Assembly (NCBI RefSeq): GCF_000495475.1
Contig: NZ_ASGZ01000052.1
Coordinates: 1 to 58,711, forward strand
Length of the DNA stretch: 58,711 nt
Origin: Candidatus Halobonum tyrrellensis G22
GTDB lineage: Archaea; Halobacteriota; Halobacteria; Halobacteriales; Haloferacaceae
Direction: 5' to 3'
The notes beneath the pieces were generated by a model. That model worked only from the letters and a program-made list of their open reading frames with translations. It searched no databases and was not told where the DNA came from. Of this stretch, positions 13,677 to 13,897 are shown piece after piece (the first letter of the stretch is position 1; the number at the start of each line of letters is the position of its first letter). Position numbers and translations under genes: made by a program.

Positions 13677-13757
13677 GCCGGGATGGCCGAGTGGTAAGGC
13701 GCACGCCTGGAAAGCGTGTTCCCTTTGGGATCCAGGGTTCAAATCCCTGTCCCGGCG
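13677..13757 (+). tRNA. tRNA-Ser (anticodon GGA)
   Basis: The acceptor stem GCCGGGA (13677-13683) pairs with TCCCGGC (13750-13756). The D arm is GCC...GGC, the anticodon stem CACGC/GCGTG encloses loop CTGGAAA (anticodon GGA, reading UCC/UCU), a long variable arm TCCC-TTT-GGGA marks a class II tRNA, and the T arm CAGGG/CCCTG encloses TTCAAAT. CCA is not encoded. No intron is seen. A TATA-like CTTAAAC lies near 13644. The last 21 bases recur downstream (see the repeat). Confidence 0.95.
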
Positions 13758-13872
13758 TGTTCTCGGGCCGCACCGCGAGCGGAGCGAGCCGCGGTCCGTT
13801 CCACCCGTTCGACGGGGATTCGAGCAGGGAGTGGAGTGACGGAGCGATACTCGCTCCGAACGGAACGACCGT

Positions 13873-13897
13873 GTTCAAATCCCTGCCCCGGCGTTCT
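13873..13897 (+). repeat. Duplicate of the tRNA-Ser 3' end (possible att site remnant)
   Basis: GTTCAAATCCCTGCCCCGGCG (13873-13893) repeats tRNA-Ser positions 13737-13757 with one mismatch, 136 bp downstream in the same orientation. The match continues with TTCTC after a 2-base gap. Tyrosine integrases typically recombine in tRNA 3' ends and leave such direct repeats. Only 115 bp lie between the copies. They hold no gene but do hold hairpins (GGAGCGA-TAC-TCGCTCC at 13841-13857 and ACCGCG...CGCGGT near 13770-13793). There is no acceptor or D arm, so it is not a second tRNA. Confidence 0.7.

Follow-up and report, generated by a model that had tools for sequence, protein, structure and literature searches.

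A candidate family of gene-less integrative cassettes behind the tRNA genes of haloarchaea

The window analysed here, a stretch of 58,711 nucleotides from Candidatus Halobonum tyrrellensis G22 (contig NZ_ASGZ01000052.1), probably carries a gene-less integrative cassette that was inserted at the T-loop of a tRNA gene and belongs to a haloarchaeal family; we assign this reading a probability of about 0.6. As we envisage it, such a cassette would comprise the terminal 21 nt (nt 53-73) of a given tRNA gene, a left part that often forms a hairpin, an inverted core complementary to nt 54-65 and a right arm, and would enter the T-loop of a matching tRNA gene near nt 53/54. The copy of nt 53-73 brought in by the cassette would restore the tRNA, the old 3' end would be pushed downstream behind the cassette, and repeated insertion at the same tRNA would give rise to polarised arrays. 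The recombination may be carried out in trans by an enzyme, most likely a tyrosine-family recombinase, that acts on a folded single strand formed by core and copy in the manner of integron attC sites, and the cassettes would be selfish, with no host function.

The insertion target in the window is the tRNA-Ser(GGA) gene at 13677-13757, on the forward strand like the parts of the unit behind it, for which the ARAGORN and Rfam placements agree. Its last 21 nt (13737-13757) form the left copy of a direct repeat whose displaced second copy lies at 13873-13893, is identical at 20/21 positions and is followed by a T-rich TTCTCC, so that the single-mismatch recurrence of the tRNA 3' end in the original prediction is confirmed. 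In tRNA numbering the repeat covers nt 53-73, its first position being the one that precedes the T-loop and its last the discriminator base; the untrimmed repeat search paired 13737-13758 with 13873-13894 at a spacing of 136 and 21/22 identity. The unit between the copies (13758-13872, an insert of 115 bp) begins with a left part of 55 bp that opens with TGTTCT (13758-13812), continues with the inverted core CGGGGATTCGAG (13813-13824), complementary to nt 54-65 of tRNA-Ser(GGA) at 9/12 positions, and ends with a right arm of the kind we call type A (CAGGGAGTGGAG...CGGAACGACCGT, 13825-13872). This arm contains an additional internal hairpin (CGGAGCGA/TCGCTCCG, z -4.2); the folding of the window's left part is not significant (z -0.4), and the left parts of many other units form hairpins.

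A search of the genome with the pattern GTTCAAATCCCTGYCCCGGC, allowing up to two mismatches, returned four matches: the two copies in the window, tRNA-Thr(CGT) and, 110 bp downstream of the latter, a copy of its own tail. At tRNA-Thr(CGT) the intervening DNA is visibly related to the 115 bp of the window, and the same pattern at a second tRNA makes the repeat in the window one of a series. For each of the 44 tRNA genes reported by the search, the DNA 70-260 bp downstream was examined for a second occurrence of that gene's nt 53-73. Nine genes had one that matched at 20/21 positions or better, and three tRNAs of this genome were followed by several copies in a row. Upstream of the same genes there was none (0/44), and permuted tails gave a mean of 0.23 and a maximum of 2 in 200 permutations, which places the repeat far beyond chance. 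With the threshold lowered to at least 16/21, 14 of the 44 tRNAs had a downstream copy, compared with a mean of 2.27 for permuted tails.

The units are spread through the class. The type-A motif matched in 39 of 292 Halobacteria genomes, and at 28 of the 30 type-A loci examined, out of a larger number of matching places, a tRNA lies just upstream on the same strand. In a search of 84,980 species, a right-end motif matched 60 sites on 59 stretches; the record titles of 58 stretches name haloarchaea, and the remaining one reads simply 'Euryarchaeota archaeon'. Of the 60 sites, 52 have an upstream tRNA whose tail matches at 17 letters or more. Six right-end sites have no detected tRNA in the stretch; two of these, L138 and L174, on short contigs, lack any clear sign of one and may mark secondary insertion sites or the termini of longer elements. 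An architecture pattern that is blind to sequence and demands a T-loop, an inverted T-loop and a T-loop with free spacing was searched in 392 genomes of the phylum: it was present in 66/81 Halobacteria genomes and in 0/311 genomes of the other classes, and the reversed pattern, used as a control, gave 0/392. In total, units were collected at 108 loci under 33 tRNA names (the ARAGORN name of one locus, L031, is doubtful on account of its length), and homologous inner sequences occur behind different tRNAs and in different genera. The original prediction had read the 115 bp as what remained between the copies after the apparent loss of an element; they belong instead to a family of non-coding units whose layout is conserved across 33 kinds of tRNA. 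What looked like a scar leads to a widespread set of tiny elements, probably still on the move, that lie directly behind essential genes in most of the Halobacteria sampled.

The usual order 3' of the tRNA is left part (often a hairpin), inverted core, right arm and second copy of nt 53-73, the core being an inverted copy of the T-loop and one T-stem strand (nt 54-65; for example GGAGGGATTCGAA behind tRNA-Thr). The length from copy to copy has a median of 123 bp (5-95% range, 104-184), with inserts of about 90-130 bp between the copies. Among 102 units whose copies match at 19/21 or better, 88 have the inverted core, and the median distance from its end to the copy is 39 nt. In the inspected examples a T-rich stretch tends, by eye, to come after both copies, as if the old terminator of the tRNA had been displaced together with its old 3' end. 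The boundaries were assessed on the first units (32 in all) at tRNAs of the own genome and at the type-A motif loci, with copies picked at 19/21 or better over nt 53-73: outside the repeat, identity to the tRNA is 0.31 at nt 49-51, and past nt 73 it is 0.5 and then 0.25. Position 52 is mostly G in both tRNA and copy; in 11 rows of the right-end-motif set A52 of the tRNA stands against G52 of the copy, a position at which the search pattern itself demands G. In Halomarina oriensis (L062 and L169) a unit follows the tail GGTTCGACTCCGACCGGGGAGCC, at which no tRNA was found by ARAGORN or, for L062, by Rfam; this tail perhaps belongs to an unusual or decayed tRNA.

Such constant boundaries could also have been set by a Cas1-like integrase, casposase or transposase that cuts any tRNA gene with a 21-nt stagger, between T-loop and 3' end, and leaves nt 53-73 as a target-site duplication. 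A mechanism of this kind accounts for copies that match the own tRNA and for a repeat that covers nt 53-73, at a fixed distance, in every tRNA. It gives no account, however, of a core inside the unit that matches the host tRNA, and units are as common in genomes without a match to Cas1 (41/48) as in those with one (24/31), though a mobile Cas1 from elsewhere might have acted in the former. We consider this explanation unlikely.

The inverted core is specific to its own tRNA. For this comparison the core was located by a generic pattern, in a set free of units found by the architecture pattern, and 14 of the 102 units, those with no core-like site, were dropped. Complementarity of the core to the own tail, compared with permuted tails, was 0.89 vs 0.75 at nt 59-60, 0.85 vs 0.71 at nt 61-62 and 0.56 vs 0.35 at nt 63-65 (z 8.2), and the excess at each of these three places was reached in 0/2000 permutations. 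There is no own-tRNA match at nt 66-68 (0.28 vs 0.29 for permuted tails), and a weak excess at nt 69-72 (z 2.8). With a single unit per tRNA kind (30 kinds), specificity remained at z 5.5 or higher throughout 50 draws, and the 8 tRNAs of the own genome, taken alone, gave z 4.0; kinship among loci of the same tRNA is therefore not the cause. R57 agreement was 120/133 (78/90 without the architecture-pattern units), a count that does not serve as main evidence because the core was placed there by its best match to the own tail. The cassette model predicts a match between core and tail as well as entry next to the tRNA, and both are seen.

Paired stems within the units co-vary. The folding and covariation sets held each distinct unit once, with a core at 9/12 or better and parts within the length limits, and included architecture-pattern units in the covariation test, in which 5' and 3' halves were exchanged among cluster representatives. 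Pairing in left parts was 7.16, compared with 4.93 after exchange (z 18.4; 79 representatives), and in right arms 4.54, compared with 3.57 (z 5.7; 28 representatives). Median z values for folding energy were -1.27 for the left part and +0.18 for the arm. This disagreement between energy and covariation in the arm arises chiefly because type A, the commonest arm, does not fold by ordinary pairs and is no more stable than shuffled sequences. Folding energy thus did not demonstrate a right-arm hairpin for type A, and the support for such a hairpin is that of the covariation test. In a fold resembling an attC site, the inverted core and the copy would make up the outer stem, and the co-varying arm, with its median folding z above zero, the inner one.

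Presence of the unit differs among orthologous loci. For tRNA-Ser(GGA), 30 of 39 orthologous loci from one genus were compared, each anchored on the tRNA and its upstream flank; a neighbouring PRC-barrel-like protein was dropped as an anchor, having many paralogues. Eleven loci have no unit, 15 have one and four have two, so that this tRNA is indeed a hot spot in relatives (19/30 loci), as had been proposed from the window alone, and the reading of the copy as a mark of integration at a tRNA 3' end is supported. One locus, L238, is the empty site of another, L237: a 386-bp upstream query is 96% identical, 45/47 letters agree right after the last tail, and L237 carries a 136-bp unit plus tail where L238 has none. 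Insertion of units at the tRNA is well supported by these comparisons; a deletion that joined the two 21-bp repeats could likewise leave an empty site.

Units also stand in tandem, as many as five in one array. Those behind tRNA-His grow at the tRNA end, with the newest unit adjoining the tRNA: the array at L078 reads U1-U2-U3, those at L147 and L170 start with U2, and that at L077 starts with U3. At L224 (G007 C1, 704000-707500), five units of alternating kinds follow tRNA-Ser(TGA) within 620 bp. Across the congeneric tRNA-Ser(GGA) loci (L237-L266), three left parts and two arms are found in all six combinations among the 20 of 23 units that could be classed, the other three being left out since the script recognised no core in them. 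This points to units exchanging left parts and arms at the inverted core.

These observations bear on two further explanations. Local duplication of the tRNA 3' end by slippage, which the original prediction would have favoured had all relatives shared the repeat and never an insertion, might have looked plausible from one locus alone; it is refuted by loci with zero, one or two units, by clean empty sites, by the polarised order of arrays and by homologous inner sequences across tRNAs and genera. Alternatively, the unit might work as RNA, either as a trailer of the tRNA or as a small RNA with a role in termination, processing or regulation, and have been copied between loci by gene conversion, an idea to which the co-varying stems, and left parts that often open with a T-rich stretch directly behind the tRNA, lend some weight. 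A needed RNA is nevertheless hard to reconcile with the 11 loci of a single genus that do without it and with the clean empty sites, a trailer has no need to end in an exact repeat of the acceptor strand, and at ten loci compared with Rfam no family other than tRNA reached the gathering score. We regard a functional RNA as improbable.

A further alternative, the view of the original prediction, is that the repeat is the attachment-site footprint (attL/attR) of an ordinary island or provirus with a tyrosine integrase, of which a short remnant survived its loss. Integration of haloarchaeal proviruses at tRNA 3' ends is described in PMC7911831, and small islands of the ordinary kind occur in the own genome at tRNA-Glu(CTC) and tRNA-Ala(GGC). 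At L027 (G000 C23), the repeat of tRNA-Glu(CTC) extends from the anticodon loop to the 3' end and encloses a 1.26-kb insert with one ORF of 268 aa and no integrase; the attachment site is of the ordinary type, and any movement of the insert would be in trans. At L191 (G000 C49, 726-3092), nt 53-73 of tRNA-Ala(GGC) recur without mismatch about 2.35 kb away, where they follow further tRNA sequence (GAGAGGCCCCG), in a small island near a contig end. Against the lost-island explanation, the repeat of the tRNA-Glu island is longer than that of the units, reaching the anticodon loop, and remnants of separate islands would not have a common layout across 33 tRNA kinds. The inserts at the type-A and right-end loci are short throughout: no kb-sized insert with the same right end was present at the tRNA-linked loci (28 of 30 type-A, 52 of 60 right-end). 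The viral contigs searched likewise gave no unit. We take this explanation to be largely refuted, with little probability left to it, and short tRNA fragments in haloarchaeal genomes accordingly need not trace lost viruses.

No integrase-bearing element with the ends of the units was found at the type-A and right-end motif loci or in viral contigs. IMG/VR contigs yielded no unit, and two relaxed patterns gave 0 matches there; an 18-mer match (L057) was rejected as chance, as it reads as a coding region and has no tRNA, and so were two matches to the architecture pattern, which lie in dense tRNA clusters where neighbouring T-loops are suitably spaced by chance. These two viral contigs, L222 and L223, of 55 and 105 kb, have 31 and 18 tRNAs in the stretches examined. 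In plasmid and phage searches with two units, the matches listed covered the tRNA part only (query end at or before letter 79). Among 79 genomes of the class, the integron integrase model TIGR02249 scored above its cut-off in none, tyrosine recombinases (PF00589) were present in all, so that their presence does not discriminate, and Cas1 (PF01867) was present in 31. Neither an integron integrase nor Cas1 thus finds support as the enzyme. Bending double-stranded DNA into a circle of about 120 bp is difficult, and a plain circle of this kind is therefore not a favoured intermediate.

Several findings count against the cassette model: the type-A arm folds no better than shuffled sequences and the left part in the window not significantly so, no autonomous partner with the ends of the units was found, no integron integrase scored above its cut-off in the 79 class genomes, and 23 of 156 units lack an inverted core at 9/12 or better. 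Moreover, six combinations of left part and arm at one locus are not predicted by a simple version of it. A more far-reaching proposal, which we put forward tentatively and hold to be somewhat doubtful, is that the tRNA genes of an entire archaeal class serve as integron-like platforms, at which gene-free, folded single-strand cassettes adapted by tail and inverted core to a given tRNA would be captured at G53^T54 in the T-loop, restoring the tRNA, building polarised arrays and exchanging parts, and that these cassettes would form a separate class of mobile element with a recombination system and enzyme of its own. If the cassette reading holds, the units would rank among the smallest known site-specific integrative elements, their arrays would be a natural ordered record of insertions at tRNA genes, and they would make it practical to test whether Archaea recombine folded single strands outside integrons.

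We found no description of such units in the open-access literature, the subscription papers being mostly beyond the reach of the search, and in that literature they appear undescribed. Non-autonomous integrative elements are a known kind, and among short, gene-free and numerous elements the units resemble MITEs, PATEs and SMRs; like MITEs, they are short and have no transposase gene. PMC3119063 gives a length of about 110 bp for SMR-A of Haloquadratum walsbyi, describes its targets as the palindromes of PATEs and IS605-type elements, with no target duplication, and calls the mode of SMR mobilisation enigmatic; the units differ from SMR-A in their position behind tRNA genes and in having the tRNA 3' end as their boundary.

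The inverted core is, to our knowledge, not part of the usual description of tRNA-gene islands. In such islands, according to PMC4383910, the 3' end borne by the element restores the tRNA and a displaced fragment marks the far end, and both the restored tRNA and the displaced 3' fragment are found in the haloarchaeal units. These differ from islands in their length of about 120 bp and in having no integrase, no genes and no kb-sized cargo; they could not have appeared in Islander, which rejects candidates below 2 kb (PMC4383910).

Pairing of inverted sites would have a precedent in CTX phage, in which attP(+) is formed from single-stranded DNA when two inverted recombinase sites pair into a double-stranded core, which is used by the host's Xer recombinases. 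The units would share this pairing of inverted sites, but no phage or virus carrying them was found in the viral contigs searched or among the phage matches listed. For integrons in Archaea, the part of PMC9668308 that was accessible contains no word beginning 'halo' or 'tRNA'.

The units depart from integrons in being gene-free, in occurring where no integron integrase scores above the cut-off, in having a tRNA T-loop as their platform and in carrying the tRNA 3' end on the cassette. They share with integrons the small cassettes beside a fixed platform, assembled in arrays with the newest nearest to it, an order seen at the tRNA-His arrays of four genomes, and their putative recombination site would likewise set an inverse core and a core (here GAA...GTTC) on either side of an arm that is variable and may be partly paired. 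An integron attC site combines pairing of its cores with an unpaired spacer, an arm stem and a GTT at the point of exchange, and the haloarchaeal units may resemble it in these features.
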